From Neisseria gonorrhoeae (lineage in GTDB: Bacteria > Pseudomonadota > Gammaproteobacteria > Burkholderiales > Neisseriaceae), in assembly GCF_003315235.1 (NCBI RefSeq), contig NZ_QNRU01000007.1, forward strand, positions 1 through 64,000: a DNA stretch of 64,000 nucleotides. Direction: 5' to 3'. The notes beneath the pieces were generated by a model that did not search any database, had not been told where the DNA came from, and saw only the letters and a program-made list of their open reading frames with translations. Of this stretch, positions 12,383-35,741 are shown piece after piece (within the stretch, counting starts at the first letter, position 1; the number at the start of each line of letters is the position of its first letter). Both the position numbers and the translations under genes were made by a program.

Positions 12383-12475
12383 GACGGCATCGGTTTGACG
12401 GTATTTAATTGAATTGCGGAAATTGACGGATTCAGTGAGATTGGCGGGATGAAGCCTACCCTATAGCCCGCCTTT

Positions 12476-12628
12476 TATAGCGGATTAACAAAAACCGGTA
12501 CGGCGTTGCCCCGCCCCGACTCAAAGGGAACGGTTCCCTAAGGCGCCCAAGCACCGGGCGGATCGGTTCCGTACCATTTGTACTGCCTGCGGCCCGCCGC
12601 CTTGTCCTGATCTTTGTTAATCCGCTAT
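12476..12628. repeat. Correia element (CREE), full-length copy 1
   Basis: About 153 bp bounded by TATAGCGGATTAACAAAAA and its inverse TTTGTTAATCCGCTAT. The internal part contains the GGTACGGCGTTGCC and CAAGGCGGCGGGCC-type blocks found in the copies at 26636 and 48484. Full-length CREE usually contain an IHF-binding site and can bring promoters; this one lies between pilC and the DnaA-box cluster. Confidence 0.92.
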
Positions 12629-12630
12629 GC

Positions 12631-13080
12631 TTATACACAACCAGACAAAAGCCATCTTATTGAAATATCATAAGATTTACTCAAAAATCTTATTTTCTCC
12701 ACCACTTATGCACAAACTCGGATACACACTCTGCCAATATGCAGAAAAAAAGACATTCGCGCCGACACCTTTTCATCCCCACAAGTTCCAAACACATTTC
12801 CGGCTTAAATATCCACAGCATTCCCGTTCTTAAAGGCACCGGCAGCCATTCGGTAAAGAAAAGCGGGATGTCGTCCGCACAACAAGCAAACTATCCACAA
12901 AACTTATTCCCCACGAAAAACAATCCACAGGTATGCACAAAAGGGAATCCTCCTTACCGACACCCTTTTAAAACGGCAATTCAGATGATTTTAAAAATAA
13001 AAAAAAGTTACCCACAGAAAATTCCCCATATCAATATAATCATCGTTTTATTATTTAAACCTTATATTTTATTTATAACC
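12631..13080. other. oriC: candidate chromosomal replication origin (DnaA-box cluster plus AT-rich stretch)
   Basis: Gene-free segment between pilC and gnd. DnaA-box-like 9-mers, all in one direction: TTATACACA (12631), TTATGCACA (12706), ATATCCACA (12809), CTATCCACA (12891), CAATCCACA (12921), GTATGCACA (12931) and TTACCCACA (13008). The two first fit TTATNCACA exactly; the others differ at one or two positions. They are followed directly by a very AT-rich stretch (13017-13080), as expected of an unwinding element. Genes to the left run mostly leftward and those to the right mostly rightward, and the plus strand changes from C-rich to G-rich here. dnaA is not in the window. Assignment is inference. 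Confidence 0.55.
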
Positions 13081-13210: not shown

Positions 13211-14659
<1,449 letters not shown>

Positions 14660-25656: not shown

Positions 25657-25676
25657 GTTATCCACAGGTGCGGGCA

Positions 25677-25713
25677 ATGCCGTCTGATGTCGGAATGCGG
25701 CTTCAGACGGCAT
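25677..25713 (+). terminator. inverted DUS hairpin after gltX
   Basis: ATGCCGTCTGA and TCAGACGGCAT flank a 15-base loop; a third DUS core follows at 25714. Confidence 0.65.
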
Positions 25714-25730
25714 TCAGACGGAAGTTGAAC

Positions 25731-26072
25731 ATGAAAAAAATATTGTATTTTCTGATGTTTGTTTTTTCTACAAGCGTATGGGCAGGGGGTGCGGAAGACA
25801 ATTTGCTCAGCATCCAATCCGGTTACCGTGCTTTACTGCAAAAGCAAAACAATCTGGACGGAAAAATCATCGGGATGCAGTCGGATTTGGAAGATGCGCG
25901 CCGGCGTTTGCAGGCGGCTCAGGCAGACATCGCCCGTTTGGAAGCGGAAATTCCTGCAGCAATGGCCCAAAAAGCCCGGCAGGCTGAAGAGATGAGGCAA
26001 ATCGGAGTGCGTTTGGACCATGCTTGGAATGCGGTTTACGGCGCAGGGGAACGAAAGCGTCGGGGGAATTGA
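25731..26072 (+). CDS. small periplasmic coiled-coil protein, unknown function
   Basis: 113 residues: signal peptide MKKILYFLMFVFSTSVWA, then a heptad-rich helix from about residue 45 to 95 (LEDARRRLQAAQADIARLEAEI). I do not recognise a family. The GNAT gene starts 3 bp after its stop, so the two are likely co-transcribed. An upstream open extension overlaps gltX and is rejected. Confidence 0.75.
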   Translation: MKKILYFLMFVFSTSVWAGGAEDNLLSIQSGYRALLQKQNNLDGKIIGMQSDLEDARRRLQAAQADIARLEAEIPAAMAQKARQAEEMRQIGVRLDHAWNAVYGAGERKRRGN

Positions 26073-26075
26073 CCG

Positions 26076-26567
26076 ATGAATTCCCTCTTTGTGGACAACA
26101 CTGTTTTTATTACACGGCTGAAAGCCGGGCATATCGGCAGGTTGGTTCAGGCGTTGTTTGAGGAGTGGCACGGATTTGAACCGTGGTCTTCCGTGGATAA
26201 GATTCGTGCCTATTACGGCAGATGTTTGAAGGATGACGAACTGCCGCTGGCTTTTGCGGCTGTGGATGATTCCGGAACCCTGTTGGGTTCGGCTGCAGTC
26301 AAGCGGCATGATATGGAAAATTTTCCACAGTATGAATATTGGTTGGGCGATGTCTTTGTTTTACCTGAATATCGCGGAAAAGGCATTGGCAGGAGGCTGG
26401 TCGCCCACTGCATAGGCGCAGCGCGTTCGCTGGGGATAAAGTTCTTGTATCTTTATACGCCTGATGTGCAAATATTTTATGAATCATTCGGCTGGGCGGT
26501 TGTCGGGCGACATTTCCATAACGGGGAATGGGTTACGGTTATGCGTTTGGATGTGGATAAGGTTTAA
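26076..26567 (+). CDS. GNAT-family N-acetyltransferase
   Basis: 163 residues with the acetyl-CoA motif A DVFVLPEYRGKGIGRRLV (about residues 92-109) and a following helix and strand (FLYLYTPDVQIFYESFGW) typical of GNAT proteins. The substrate cannot be inferred. A perfect DnaA box (TGTGGATAA, 26552-26560) falls in the last codons. Confidence 0.9.
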   Translation: MNSLFVDNTVFITRLKAGHIGRLVQALFEEWHGFEPWSSVDKIRAYYGRCLKDDELPLAFAAVDDSGTLLGSAAVKRHDMENFPQYEYWLGDVFVLPEYRGKGIGRRLVAHCIGAARSLGIKFLYLYTPDVQIFYESFGWAVVGRHFHNGEWVTVMRLDVDKV

Positions 26568-26580
26568 GCCGAATGGGCAG

Positions 26581-26607
26581 ATGCCGTCTGAGCTGTTCGG
26601 ACGGCAT
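26581..26607 (+). terminator. inverted DUS terminator after the acetyltransferase
   Basis: ATGCCGTCTGAG and GTTCGGACGGCAT form a hairpin followed by T6. Confidence 0.8.
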
Positions 26608-26635
26608 TTTTTATGTTTGGAAATTTCCTGTCAGA

Positions 26636-26789
26636 TATAGTGGATTAACAAAAACCGGTACGGCGTTGCCCCGCCCCGGCTCAAAGAGAACGATTCCCTA
26701 AGGCGCCCAAGCACCGGGCGAACCGGTTCCGTACCATTTGTACTGCCCGCGGCCCGCCGCCTTGTCCTGATTTTTGTTAATCCGCTATA
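26636..26789. repeat. Correia element (CREE), full-length copy 2
   Basis: 154 bp from TATAGTGGATTAACAAAAA to TTTTGTTAATCCGCTATA, nearly identical to the copies at 12476 and 48484. It lies between the acetyltransferase and mutS 3' ends, directly beside a DnaA box at 26794. Confidence 0.95.
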
Positions 26790-26842
26790 AAGTTTATCCA
26801 CAGATTTTTCCATATGGTTTGATGCTGCTCCGCCAACGGAAA

Positions 26843-29437
26843 TTAAGATACGGATTTGCACAAATCTTTCAGACGGTACAGTTCTGACAATGCTTCGCGC
26901 GGGGTCAGGCTGTCGGGATCGAGGTTTTCCAGGGCTGCTGCCAATATACCTTCAAAATGTTTTTCCTCTGCTTTATCCACAAAGCAGTCCACATTCGGTT
27001 CATCTCCTTTTTCAGACGGCATGGTACTGAAAATATCCAGTTGGGGACGGTTTGCGGCGGCTTGGTTTTCCAGTCCGTTCAAATGCTTTTGGGCGGCTTT
27101 CAATGCGCGCACAGGCAGGCCGGCGAGTTTGGCGACGGCGATGCCGTAGCTTTTTCCGGCGGGACCGGGTTGGATTTGGTGCAGGAACACGATGTCCCGT
27201 CCCTGTTCGAGCGCGGAAAGGTGCATATTGACGGCGGCGGCGTGGGCTTCGGGCAGGTAGGTCAGCTCGAAATAGTGGGTGGCAAACAGGCTGAAGGATT
27301 TGTTTTTTTGCAGCAGGTGTTCGGCGATTGCGTGCGCGAGGGCGAGGCCGTCGAAAGTGGAAGTACCACGTCCGACTTCGTCCATTAAAACAATGCTTTG
27401 TTCGGTGGCGTGATGCAGGATGTAGGCGGTTTCGCTCATTTCGACCATGAAGGTGGAGCGGTTGGAGGCGAGGTCGTCCGATGCGCCGATGCGGGTGAAG
27501 ATTTGATCGACAGGCCCGATTGTGGCGGCATCGGCAGGCACGAAACAGCCGGTGTGTGCCAATAAAACAATCAGCGCGACTTGGCGCATATAGGTGGATT
27601 TGCCGCCCATATTGGGGCCGGTGAGCAGCATGAGGCGGTGTTTGTGGTCGAGGTCGGTGTGGTTGGCTGTGAAGTGGCGTACCTGCTGTTCGACAACGGG
27701 ATGGCGGCCGTTTTCGATGTGGACAACCGGATAGTCGGCAAACTCGGGACGGACAAAGTTCCGCTCTTTTGCCAAGGCTGAAAATGTGGACAACACGTCC
27801 AGCGCGGCGGCGGCTTTGGCGGCTTTTTGAAGCTGCGGCAATGCCGTCCGAAGGTTTTTCAATACGCCGTCAAAGAGTTGTTTTTCTAAGGCGAGGGCTT
27901 GGTCTTGAGCAGTCAGCACTTTGTCTTCAAAGGCTTTCAGTTCCGGCGTGATGAAGCGTTCGGCGTTTTTGAGGGTTTGCCGGCGTTGGTAGTCGGCAGG
28001 TGCTTGTTCGGCTTGGGTTTTGGACAATTCAATGTAAAAGCCGTGAACGCGGTTGAACTCGACTTTGAGTGTGGACAAACCGGTACGTTCGCGTTCCTTG
28101 GCTTCCAAATCCAGCAAAAATTCGTCGCCATGGTTTTGAATGCGGCGCAATTCGTCCAGTTCGGGATGAAAACCGTGGTTGATGACATTGCCGTCTTTCA
28201 GCCAGACGGAAGGTTCGGGCATCACGGCGGCTTTGAGGGTTTCGGCAACTGGCAGGGTTTCGGGGAAAACGGCTTTAAGGGTTTCCAACAGGCTGCTGCC
28301 GGTTGCGGACAAGTCGATTTGTGCCAACTCGAACAGACTGTCGCGTAAAGATGCCAAATCGCGCGGGCGGGCATTGCCGACGGCGATGCGGGCGGCGATA
28401 CGTTCGATGTCGGCAATGCTCTTCAGATGGCATTGGAGGGGTTCGTATTGGCTTTCCAGCGCGGTTACGGCTTCTTGGCGCGCTCGGATGTGGGCGCGGT
28501 TGCGTAAAGGGTGGTGCAGCCACAATGCCAACAGGCGGCTGCCCATGTGGGTGGCGCAGCCGTCGAGTATGGAAAACAGGGTCGGCGTTTTTTTGCCGGA
28601 GAGGGTTTGCGTGATTTCGAGATTGCGGCGCGTGGCGGCATCCATGCCGATATATTGGCTGTCGGTTTCGAGCGACAGGCCGTCCAAATGTTGCGGCATC
28701 AGGTTTTGCGTCAGGCGGATATAGTTCAACAGCGCACCTGCCGCGCCAATCGAAACGGCGTGTTCTTTGCTGTCCAAACCGAAGCCGCGCAAATCTTGGC
28801 AGCCGAAATATTCCGTCAGCAGTTTTTCCCCCGCGTCGGCGGCAAACTGCCACGCGTTCAGGCGTGTAACACCCGATGCCGTCTGAAGTTGCGGTGCGTT
28901 TTTACTGTCCGGCAGCAAAATTTCCGCCGCCTGCAGGCGCGCCAGTTCGTCGTTCAATTTATCCGCAGTTGTCAGCTTGGTTTTGAATTCGCCGCTTTGC
29001 AGCGATGCCCACGCTAAACCGATGTATTTTTTGTCGGGAGACACGGCAACGATGCGGTTGGTTTCCTTGTCTTCCAGTAATGCGGAATCGGTTAGCGTGC
29101 CGGGCGTTACGATGCGCACGACTTTGCGCTCCACCGGCCCTTTGCCCGCGCCGACTTCGCCGACCTGTTCGCAAATCGCCACGCTTTTGCCCAACTTGAC
29201 CAGGCGCGCCAGATACTGTTCCGCCGCGTGAAACGGAACGCCTGCCATTTTAATCGGCACGCCGTCCATCTGCCCGCGTGTGGTCAGGGTGATGTCCAAC
29301 AATTTCGCCGCTTCCACCGCGTCATCCAAAAACAGCTCGTAAAAATCACCCATACGGTAAAACACTAGTTTGTCGGTATGTTGCGCTTTTATGCCGAGGT
29401 ATTGCTGCATCATTGGGGAAACGGCGGATTTGGACAT
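26843..29437 (-). CDS. mutS: DNA mismatch repair protein MutS
   Basis: 864 residues, full length. Recognises mismatches and, with MutL, directs repair; its loss raises phase-variation rates in meningococci. The mismatch-binding domain has the Phe-x-Glu motif in the N-terminus ([13 protein letters not shown], about residue 29); the ATPase P-loop is [14 protein letters not shown] near residue 620 with [12 protein letters not shown] after it. No frameshift is visible. A DnaA box (26973-26981) lies near its 3' end. Confidence 0.97.
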
Positions 29438-30872
<1,435 letters not shown>

Positions 30873-30899
30873 GGCTTGAACAAACCTGTGGATAAGTAA

Positions 30900-30932
30900 A
30901 TGCCGTCTGAACACATTGCGTTCAGACGGCAT
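30900..30932. terminator. bidirectional inverted DUS terminator between gap and trmO
   Basis: ATGCCGTCTGAAC and GTTCAGACGGCAT around a seven-base loop, between converging genes. A perfect DnaA box (TGTGGATAA, 30887-30895) lies immediately upstream. Confidence 0.85.
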
Positions 30933-31023
30933 TGTTTATCTGTAACTTGATATTGCGGCTTATGGCGAACAAACAACAGCCGTTTGTTCAACTGCTATGC
31001 GGCAAAACCGGATTTTGCCCGAT

Positions 31024-31704
31024 TTAAAGCGGGGTTGGGGAAAGATTAATAACCGTCGCGCGGTTTTCCTCGATTTGAAACCTGACTTCGTAATCCGCAA
31101 TATTCATCACATAAATCCGTTCGGGAATATTCTGATAGGCGGGGCGCGGATCTTGGGCAATGCTTTGGCTGATAAGGTTTTTGGTGTTTGCAGATAAATT
31201 TTCCGCGCCGATGTTTTCCTGCCAAACGACTTCCAACTCTACGGGTTTGCCGCTGACGAAACCGGATGCGGCATCGGGTTTGGATTCGATAAAGGGGATA
31301 TAAGGCTTGATGTCCACAATCGGCGTGCCGTCCAGCAGGTCTGAGCCGCTGCAATAGAGGCGGACGGGTTTGCCGGTTTCGATGCGTTCGAGTTTAAGGA
31401 GAGAGAGTCCGAGATGGTTGGGGCGGTGGGGGCTGCGCGTGGCGAACACGCCCATTTTTTGTTTGCCGCCGAGCCGTGGCGGGCGCACCATTTGCGCCCA
31501 ACCTTCATCCAATACGCCGTGGAAGATAAAACTTATCCACACATAATCGAAATCTTCCAACCCGCGCACGCTGTCTGCGGTAAATTCGGGATTCAGCTCG
31601 ATGCAGGCTTCTGCGGCGGAGACCAAACCGGGCTGGCGGGCGATGCCGAATTTCTGTTTGTAGGGCGAGCGGGCGGTGCCGATGGGGGTAATGGTATAAG
31701 TCAT
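31024..31704 (-). CDS. trmO: tRNA (N6-threonylcarbamoyladenosine-37) methyltransferase TrmO
   Basis: 226 residues of the TrmO/YaeB (TsaA) family, which uses S-adenosylmethionine to methylate t6A37 in tRNA-Thr. Family motifs GVFATRSPHRPNHLGLSLL (about residues 85-103) and DGTPIVDIKPYIP are intact, and the C-terminal extension of the proteobacterial form is present. Perfect DnaA boxes lie inside (31533) and just upstream (31710). Confidence 0.92.
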   Translation of the reverse strand: MTYTITPIGTARSPYKQKFGIARQPGLVSAAEACIELNPEFTADSVRGLEDFDYVWISFIFHGVLDEGWAQMVRPPRLGGKQKMGVFATRSPHRPNHLGLSLLKLERIETGKPVRLYCSGSDLLDGTPIVDIKPYIPFIESKPDAASGFVSGKPVELEVVWQENIGAENLSANTKNLISQSIAQDPRPAYQNIPERIYVMNIADYEVRFQIEENRATVINLSPTPL

Positions 31705-32163
31705 AAGATTGTGGATAAGTTTTTTGGAAAAACCTTATCTTATCACAGCCGGTTTTACCGCTTTCGGGTAGTAATTTGTTATAATACAGGGCATTTAAAT
31801 CGCGTTGAAATAAAGTAGCACAGAATCCTCGTGTCCAAGACGCTCTTAAAAAGGCATTGGAGTATTGATAAAAAAGAAGCATAACGGTTCGTTATAACGA
31901 AGAGGGAATCCCGTATATTACACCCAAGTCAGGTTGTTATCTTTCCTTTTGGATCTCACTTACAGGAGGTGAGATCTGAAATTTTGGGTAATAAAATCGG
32001 ATTACAGCTTCTAGCAAGGAGTACCTTAGGTATAGCTAAAATGGAGGGGGTGGATATGACATATCATATCCACCTAGATGGATTGTGCTCCTTAAATAAA
32101 GAAGGTAAGAGTTTTGTTATTCGTAAAATAGAGAATGACGATCTTAAGTGAAGAAGTAATGAG
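31705..32163 (+). promoter_or_regulatory. long structured leader upstream of the nicotinamidase-like gene
   Basis: About 370 nt of AT-rich, repeat-rich sequence between an extended -10 promoter (TGTTATAAT, 31777-31785) and the next gene. Visible structures: palindrome TTCGTTATAACGAA (31888-31901); stem GATCTCAC/GTGAGATC (31952-31976) with AGGAG in its loop; and stem GGTGGATATG/CATATCCACC with a six-base loop (32050-32075). An open frame of 60 codons begins with GTG at 31969, directly after the looped AGGAG, and ends at 32151; an internal ATG at 32041 would give 36 residues. I recognise neither the RNA nor the peptide. It may be a regulatory leader or a small-gene locus. Confidence 0.5.
31969..32151 (+). 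CDS. possible small ORF inside the leader, unknown
   Basis: 60 codons starting at GTG 31969 after AGGAGG; that Shine-Dalgarno lies in the loop and arm of an 8-bp hairpin. A shorter version could start at ATG 32041 or 32056. The C-terminal part (SLNKEGKSFVIRKIENDDLK) reads like a protein, but codon use is AT-rich and unlike the neighbours. It ends 12 bp before the nicotinamidase-like gene. Coding status is uncertain. Confidence 0.3.
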   Translation: MRSEILGNKIGLQLLARSTLGIAKMEGVDMTYHIHLDGLCSLNKEGKSFVIRKIENDDLK

Positions 32164-32799
32164 ATGATTGTTTCCATTGATGTTGATGCACAAAAAACGT
32201 TTACGCCACTGTGTCCTGACGAACTGCCCGTGAACGAGGGGCATTTGATTGTCGAGGAGTTAAATGCCCAAGCCGCTTTGGCGGATTTGCGTGTGATGAC
32301 GAAAGATGCGCATCATATGGCGGCGAAATGGCTTGTGGATAACCCTGTTGATATGTTGAAGCCGACAGGTTTGTCCGATGCGGATTTGACTTGGGTGGCT
32401 CATGCGATGGTCGGTACGTGCGGCTATGAATTGTTGGACGGTCTGCCTTCCGCCAAGGAATACGATTATTGCGTTTGGAAAGGTGTCGATCCCGAATTGC
32501 ATCCTTACGGCGCGTGTTTTCACGATATTGAGGAAAAACTGAGCACTGGATTGATTGAGTGGCTGCGTTGTCAAAATACGAATATGGTCATTGTCGGTGG
32601 CTTGGCTACGGATTATTGTGTTAAAACAACGGTTTTGCAGTTACTTAAAGGCGGTCGTTGGCAGGTTATCGTGAATGAAGCGGCTTGTCGGGGTATTGCG
32701 CCCGATACCATTGAAGCAGCGTGGCAGGAAATGCGTTCTTCGGGTGCGATAATTTTGAAAAACGCCGAAAAAATTAAAAAATATATTAATAATCAATAA
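32164..32799 (+). CDS. isochorismatase-fold hydrolase, nicotinamidase-like
   Basis: 211 residues of the cysteine-hydrolase (isochorismatase) superfamily. The catalytic triad can be placed: D8 in SIDVDAQKTF, K106 in YCVWKGVDP and C152 in GGLATDYCVKTT. A metal-site pattern DAHH (48-51) supports nicotinamidase (nicotinamide to nicotinate for NAD salvage) over isochorismatase. It follows the structured leader and precedes waaC by 36 bp, with a parS-like palindrome in the gap. Confidence 0.85.
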   Translation: MIVSIDVDAQKTFTPLCPDELPVNEGHLIVEELNAQAALADLRVMTKDAHHMAAKWLVDNPVDMLKPTGLSDADLTWVAHAMVGTCGYELLDGLPSAKEYDYCVWKGVDPELHPYGACFHDIEEKLSTGLIEWLRCQNTNMVIVGGLATDYCVKTTVLQLLKGGRWQVIVNEAACRGIAPDTIEAAWQEMRSSGAIILKNAEKIKKYINNQ

Positions 32800-32807
32800 C
32801 TTATAAT

Positions 32808-32823
32808 TGTTTCACGTGAAACA
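32808..32823. promoter_or_regulatory. parS site (ParB-binding palindrome)
   Basis: TGTTTCACGTGAAACA, a perfect 16-bp palindrome equal to the widely conserved bacterial parS consensus, between the nicotinamidase-like gene and waaC. parS sites cluster around chromosome origins. parA and parB are not in the window. Confidence 0.8.
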
Positions 32824-35725: not shown

Positions 35726-35741
35726 TGTTTCACGTGAAACT
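35726..35741. promoter_or_regulatory. second parS-like site
   Basis: TGTTTCACGTGAAACT, 15 of 16 positions of the parS consensus, 2.9 kb from the first and directly after etfA. Confidence 0.75.

Follow-up and report, generated by a model that had tools for sequence, protein, structure and literature searches.

The segment between pilC and gnd in Neisseria gonorrhoeae raises the question of whether chromosome replication starts there, away from dnaA, and whether one element or two would take part. In the Escherichia coli-type unwinding layout of a dnaA-linked oriC, DnaA boxes pointing in one direction are followed by AT-rich DNA. A preliminary description of the window (by which we mean the whole stretch of 64,000 nucleotides analysed) had proposed an origin of this kind upstream of gnd. 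We refer to this candidate as copy A, and to a second origin-like element, upstream of a gapA-type gene, as copy B.

A One-Strand Array of DnaA Boxes Upstream of gnd

When the window was scanned for 9-mers with up to two mismatches to TTATCCACA, ten were found in copy A, all on the plus strand, with starts from 12631 to 13008 (span 12631-13016, 386 bp). Five of them carry one mismatch and none is perfect, and the minus strand of the same 450-bp segment contains no 9-mer within two mismatches. The preliminary description had counted seven boxes, so that the cluster is larger than initially reported. In 300 dinucleotide shuffles of the window, one-strand clusters of the same width had at most six boxes, as compared to the ten observed; on the real minus strand of the window a cluster also reaches up to six, outside copy A. 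When the 450-bp segment itself was shuffled 2000 times, ten boxes were never reached (0/2000; mean 2.0, maximum 8). The features of copy A and its conserved neighbour are as follows.

12631..13080, plus strand: copy A, candidate oriC, a one-strand DnaA-box array and then AT-rich DNA (box scan and model R1)
12631..12639, plus strand: DnaA-box-like TTATACACA, one mismatch, where a dispersed repeat ends (box scan)
12695..12703, plus strand: DnaA-box-like TTCTCCACC, two mismatches (box scan)
12706..12714, plus strand: DnaA-box-like TTATGCACA, one mismatch (box scan)
12773..12781, plus strand: DnaA-box-like TCATCCCCA, two mismatches (box scan)
12809..12817, plus strand: DnaA-box-like ATATCCACA, one mismatch (box scan)
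12891..12899, plus strand: conserved box 1, CTATCCACA (0-2 mismatches in 29/29 aligned species)
12921..12929, plus strand: conserved box 2, CAATCCACA, 30 bp after box 1 (box scan and alignment)
12931..12939, plus strand: DnaA-box-like GTATGCACA, two mismatches (box scan)
12954..12962, plus strand: DnaA-box-like TTACCGACA, two mismatches (box scan)
13008..13016, plus strand: conserved box 3, TTACCCACA, 87 bp after box 2, adjoining the AT-rich flank (29/29 aligned species)
13017..13080, plus strand: putative DNA unwinding element; it contains the conserved stretch TCAATATAATCATCGTTTTATTATTTAAA (alignments, AT content)
13211..14659, plus strand: gnd, 6-phosphogluconate dehydrogenase (6PGD), conserved neighbour (domain match)

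The AT-rich stretch described after the boxes is indeed present, its best 50-mer being 88% AT and located 182 bp before gnd. The position between pilC and gnd was also correct, since the genes on either side encode a PilY1-domain protein (left, pilC) and the 6PGD protein (right). A dispersed repeat at 12474-12632 (left end set by eye), which we take to be a Correia-type element, stops at the first box of copy A, to within a few bases. The terminal part of this repeat, from 12600 to about 12632, has matches at many sites in the source genome and in relatives.

Conservation of Three Boxes and of the AT-Rich Tail

The regions upstream of gnd were aligned for 29 of 30 gnd loci, 15 further genomes with gnd lying outside this set; locus L062 (genome G003) was left out because its record ends in this region. 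Box 2 follows box 1 at 30 bp in 28 of the 29 aligned species and at 31 bp in G004, which is also the one species where box 2 has four mismatches instead of 0-2. Box 3 is located 86-88 bp from box 2, with 0-2 mismatches, in all 29 species. The consensus of the AT-rich tail, TCAATATCATCATCTTTTTATTATTTAAA, is well conserved, but variable in several species.

The tail was also analysed for DnaA-trios, a single-strand motif according to the available portions of two published accounts (PMC10721633, PMC8287927). Strict [CT]T[AT] runs had a mean of 3.03 as compared to 2.10 in shuffled sequences, with 25/29 species above their shuffle mean. With the loose published rule (NTN), runs of 2-8 triplets were obtained, below 0.05 with respect to shuffles in 2/29 species; these runs start 9-29 bp from box 3, within the published 16-bp limit in three species and beyond it in 26. 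Since the loose published definition is not significant against shuffles, we do not claim DnaA-trios.

Model R1 Finds the Element Before gnd and, Elsewhere, After dnaA

Of the 29 gnd-upstream elements, 27 were used to train R1, a model based on sequence alone, whose E-values are rough. The R1 core of copy A corresponds to 12878-13080 (E 4e-34, 113.1 bits), a score obtained by construction, given that copy A is in the training set. In a search of 83 genomes of the family, combined with the positions of gnd and gapA, R1 matched 96-221 bp before gnd in 41 of the 45 Neisseria genomes with gnd. With the 27 training genomes set aside, R1 matched in 14 out of 18. No match upstream of gnd was given by the other four, namely G003 (whose record ends inside the region), G006, G025, and G040. 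The other matches in the genus (E ≤1e-4; G003, G004, G030, G033, G041, and G045) are within 7 kb of gnd, and in the family outside the genus R1 matched before gnd in 4/8 genomes with this gene.

An order-wide draw of 200 genomes, 195 of them outside the family, was searched with a cut-off of E ≤1e-4 and stricter filters. Outside the family, 37/195 genomes gave a match and 158/195 gave none. The position of dnaA was listed for 30 of the 37, and in 20 of these it is on the same contig as the match. In 14 of the 20, from seven families, the match is located 559-819 bp after the DnaA core domain and on the dnaA strand, which, judging from gene length, would place it just after dnaA, in the gap before the next gene. 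The other same-contig cases comprise five matches at 4.5-59 kb from dnaA and one at 3.18 Mb along a 3.6-Mb record; in the remaining 10/30 genomes the match is on a contig other than that of dnaA. A model trained upstream of gnd therefore recognises, elsewhere, the usual origin position beside dnaA, and we regard this as the strongest support for the identity of the element as oriC. The matches after dnaA may in part be due simply to the combination of boxes and AT-rich DNA.

Doubled elements were observed in several genomes. In G045 the gnd-linked element is present before and just after gnd on the same strand (locus L147, 9402-9605 and 11265-11468). Tandem pairs 226-310 bp apart occur in another genus of the family (G050, G051, and G053) and in two further families of the order (G109, G174, G197, G235, and G270); in G109 and G235 the pair is 14-15 kb from dnaA. 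Although dnaA is more than 300 kb off, two one-contig records start or end at the element (G067, C1:78-272, and G003, end of C1), as would be expected if their base 1 had been set at a predicted origin.

GC Skew and the Position of dnaA

The GC skew of the window, taken in 2-kb steps, is negative in five steps over 1-10 kb, about zero at 10-14 kb and positive in 24 of the 25 steps from 14 kb on, and the cumulative G minus C in 500-bp steps has its minimum for the window at 13,000. The change in skew described initially from sampled lines was thereby confirmed. The statement that dnaA is not adjacent was likewise borne out, this gene being on contig C4, apart from the window.

Since the source genome is in 72 contigs, the skew along the chromosome was sampled in five one-contig relatives (20-kb stretches, 120 in total, denser near the element in G019, G036, G009, and G045; one of the G036 stretches is mostly N). 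The integrated detrended skew had its minimum in the stretch holding copy A in G019, G009, and G045, although in the latter the minimum is shallow, and in a neighbouring stretch, 26 kb from copy A, in G036. In G011, whose curve has other reversals, the lowest stretch is the one holding dnaA, about 322 kb away from the element; for this reason, G011 counts against a displaced origin. The chromosomal minimum predicted near copy A by the preliminary description was therefore found at the site or within 26 kb of it in four of the five relatives, and at dnaA in the fifth. In all five complete relatives dnaA is 230-323 kb away from the element (276 kb in G019, 230 kb in G009, 323 kb in G045, and 300 kb in G036).

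A Second Element Upstream of gapA

R1 gave a further match in the window, between mutS and a gapA-type gene, with an E-value of 3.4e-10 in the window and 1.4e-8 in the genome. Copy B was never part of the training set. It is absent from the preliminary description.

29543..29732, plus strand: copy B, upstream of gapA (R1)
29555..29563, plus strand: box 1 of copy B, TTATCCATA (box scan and R1)
29585..29593, plus strand: degenerate box 2 of copy B, at a distance of 30 bp from box 1 (R1 alignment)
29672..29680, plus strand: box 3 of copy B, TTATACACA, at a distance of 117 bp from box 1, the same as in copy A (box scan and R1)
29868..30872, plus strand: gapA-type glyceraldehyde-3-phosphate dehydrogenase gene, conserved neighbour of copy B

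Among the 40 Neisseria genomes with a close gapA, copy B recurs upstream of this gene in 32 (in G008 with an E-value of only 4e-4), and R1 gave no match before gapA in the other eight. Both copies were found in 29 of 45 Neisseria genomes. In 27 of them A and B are on one contig, and in 21 of these they are inverted with respect to each other and 1.3-8.9 kb apart; by coordinates, the tails point outward in 20 inverted pairs and inward in one (G045). The remaining six pairs have the same direction; the window and three relatives account for the four that are 16.7-16.9 kb apart. In copy B, boxes 1 and 3 are 117 bp apart in the window, 118 bp in G036 and 115 bp in G011, which are three of the four copies compared; in the copy B of G045 only box 3 is clear. 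In G036 the genes for gamma-glutamyltranspeptidase and LpxC (lpxC) separate A and B. Comparing the window between 12.6 and 29.5 kb with G036 (locus L100), we noticed that the gnd side is flipped and that mutS, not lpxC, precedes copy B, so that a local rearrangement seems to have occurred at the origin in the lineage of the window.

Perfect Boxes, parS-Like Sites and Gene Directions

The source genome contains 22 perfect TTATCCACA sites, as compared to four for a reversed control pattern. Nine of the 22 are in the window, at 25.7-39.4 kb, and none of them is inside copy A; the "many" perfect boxes noted earlier within 30 kb are these nine. Eight of them surround copy B and are possibly a DnaA-titrating cluster.

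25658..32342, both strands: eight of the 22 perfect TTATCCACA sites within 6.7 kb, to the left and right of copy B (25658+, 26552-, 26794+, 26973+, 30887-, 31533+, 31710-, 32334-)
32808..32823, no strand: parS-like palindrome, perfect, TGTTTCACGTGAAACA (motif scan)
35726..35741, no strand: parS-like site with one mismatch (motif scan)

In the relatives, the stretch with the origin element holds 13 perfect boxes in G036 (mean of 0.26 in 31 other stretches), seven in G045 (0.11 in 19 others) and three in G011 (0.26 in 19 others). No enrichment was observed in the stretches with copy A of G019 and G009, which contain one perfect box each, other stretches reaching three and two; in G019, copy B falls outside the stretch counted. 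Two perfect boxes of G036 are in or just before copy B, and one is in copy A.

The two parS-like sites that had been reported within 30 kb are 20 and 23 kb from copy A. With up to one mismatch, the source genome has only three such sites (these two and one on contig C17), and the site at 32808 is the only perfect one. G036 also has two parS-like sites (up to one mismatch), located past copy B at about 3 and 6 kb from it.

The directions of the genes follow the earlier account only in part. To the left of copy A, where genes were said to run mostly leftward, four of the seven identified are on the minus strand (P5CR/proC-like, alanine-racemase-N/YggS-like, GIY-YIG, and pilC) and three on the plus strand (two PilT-family ATPases and YccS), so that the claim does not stand on this side. 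To the right, five of the genes named are on the plus strand (gnd, kdtA, terC, murA, and pgk) and four on the minus strand (ftsX, ftsE, mutS, and trmO).

Discussion

The initial reading of an oriC located away from dnaA is supported by the box array, the AT-rich flank, the local skew minimum, the sampled skew of four of the five relatives, the parS-like sites and the gnd-upstream architecture conserved in the genus. On this sequence evidence, copy A is very probably the chromosomal oriC, displaced from dnaA, and we assign to this reading a probability of about 0.85. DnaA would bind the one-directional array, with the three boxes spaced 30 and about 87 bp as its core, and would open the adjoining AT-rich DNA, towards gnd; DnaB would then be loaded and, upon firing, two forks would leave copy A. 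The parS-like sites beyond copy B would serve segregation.

An origin at dnaA, as in most bacteria, was considered and rejected. Upstream of dnaA the source genome has two perfect and two weaker boxes, and the sampled skew of G011 favours this position. Nevertheless, these are four boxes with respect to the ten of copy A, the skew minima lie away from dnaA in four of the five relatives, the R1 matches near dnaA within the genus are weak (E 6.5e-4 or worse), and the perfect parS-like site is in the window; G011 stays contrary to the rejection, and we regard an origin at dnaA as very improbable. It is also unlikely, if somewhat less so, that the origin is elsewhere nearby and that the two copies serve gnd and gapA, either as promoter regions under the control of DnaA or as sites that titrate it. 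Such a role would agree with the location of both copies 96-309 bp before a sugar-metabolism gene and with the conserved stretch that runs on from copy A towards the start of gnd in many species. It would not account for skew minima at or near copy A in four of the five sampled chromosomes, for the presence of parS in the region, or for R1 matches just after dnaA in other families.

The role of copy B is less clear-cut than that of copy A. It would be a second module of the same design within the same origin region and, together with the nearby perfect boxes, could represent half of a bipartite or twin origin; it might otherwise act as a second opening site, form a bridged complex together with A, or serve as a control site along with the perfect boxes around it. 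From the sequence, we consider the chances about even that copy B participates in initiation or in its control. The main start in the window's lineage is suggested to be A and not B, because the skew between them is positive overall and the boxes of B are weaker. The same skew, as if this DNA were copied rightward from A, would also agree with copy A being the sole origin and B a relic, or a by-product of some ancient duplication, that takes no part in initiation, an explanation that we hold possible, with some doubt. In fact, the copy B of the window has only two boxes with up to one mismatch and a degenerate box 2, it scores 35.6 bits as compared to 113.1 for A, and eight of the 40 genomes lack a match before gapA. 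On the other hand, a relic should decay, whereas the distance from box 1 to box 3 is kept in three of the four copies compared and the element is found upstream of gapA in 32/40 genomes; moreover, in G036 copy B has more perfect boxes in or just before it than copy A contains. A fuller model, which we propose only tentatively, is that Neisseria may have a twin origin made of two complete modules (boxes at fixed spacing and an AT-rich tail), usually inverted with the tails outward to gnd and gapA, which would act together, either with a fork opened by each module or with one module in control of the other; in the window's lineage the two would have become tandem, 16.7 kb apart.

Neisseria cells contain several copies of the genome. 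For this genus, which includes important human pathogens, these results give the replication origin a precise location and a layout that can be tested. A predicted origin in Neisseria is not new in itself, since putative origins are already reported in the available parts of PMC2784325 and PMC3898611. In the former, base 1 of N. meningitidis 8013 was placed in the putative origin by published prediction rules, citing Mackiewicz 2004; in the latter, a review, the legend of a figure indicates that putative oriC is marked in meningococcal genomes. The origin predicted for strain 8013 is probably the same locus as copy A, although the available text of PMC2784325 gives neither its place nor a box layout, a neighbour gene or a second copy. 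Within the literature searched, partly available as excerpts, we found neither copy B nor an arrangement with gnd and gapA described; copy A may be listed in DoriC or in Mackiewicz 2004. The accessible part of a gonococcal study (PMC9337635) describes genomes rotated to dnaA, a procedure that would not place base 1 of Neisseria genomes at the origin.

With respect to dnaA-linked bacterial origins, the Neisseria element has in common the boxes in one direction and the AT-rich DNA, and R1 finds the spot after dnaA in 14 of 20 cases; it differs in its distance from dnaA (230-323 kb in five relatives) and in having gnd and gapA as neighbours. Putative double origins collected in DoriC (PMC4403523, as far as the available text goes) are similar in that two origin-like regions lie near each other on one bacterial chromosome; the word Neisseria is absent from that text. 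In the bipartite origins of Helicobacter pylori and Bacillus subtilis, according to the available sections of PMC8235120, two box clusters flank dnaA, and the DNA unwinding element is in oriC2 in B. subtilis and beside the ts boxes of oriC2 in H. pylori. As in those origins, two DnaA-box clusters close together and separated by one or more genes would form a single origin region in Neisseria. In contrast, dnaA is not between the clusters (in G036 it is 300 kb away), 21/27 pairs are inverted, and both clusters have an AT-rich tail of the same design. This suggests a bipartite origin in which, unlike the two compared here, both halves would carry an unwinding-type tail and neither would be located beside dnaA.
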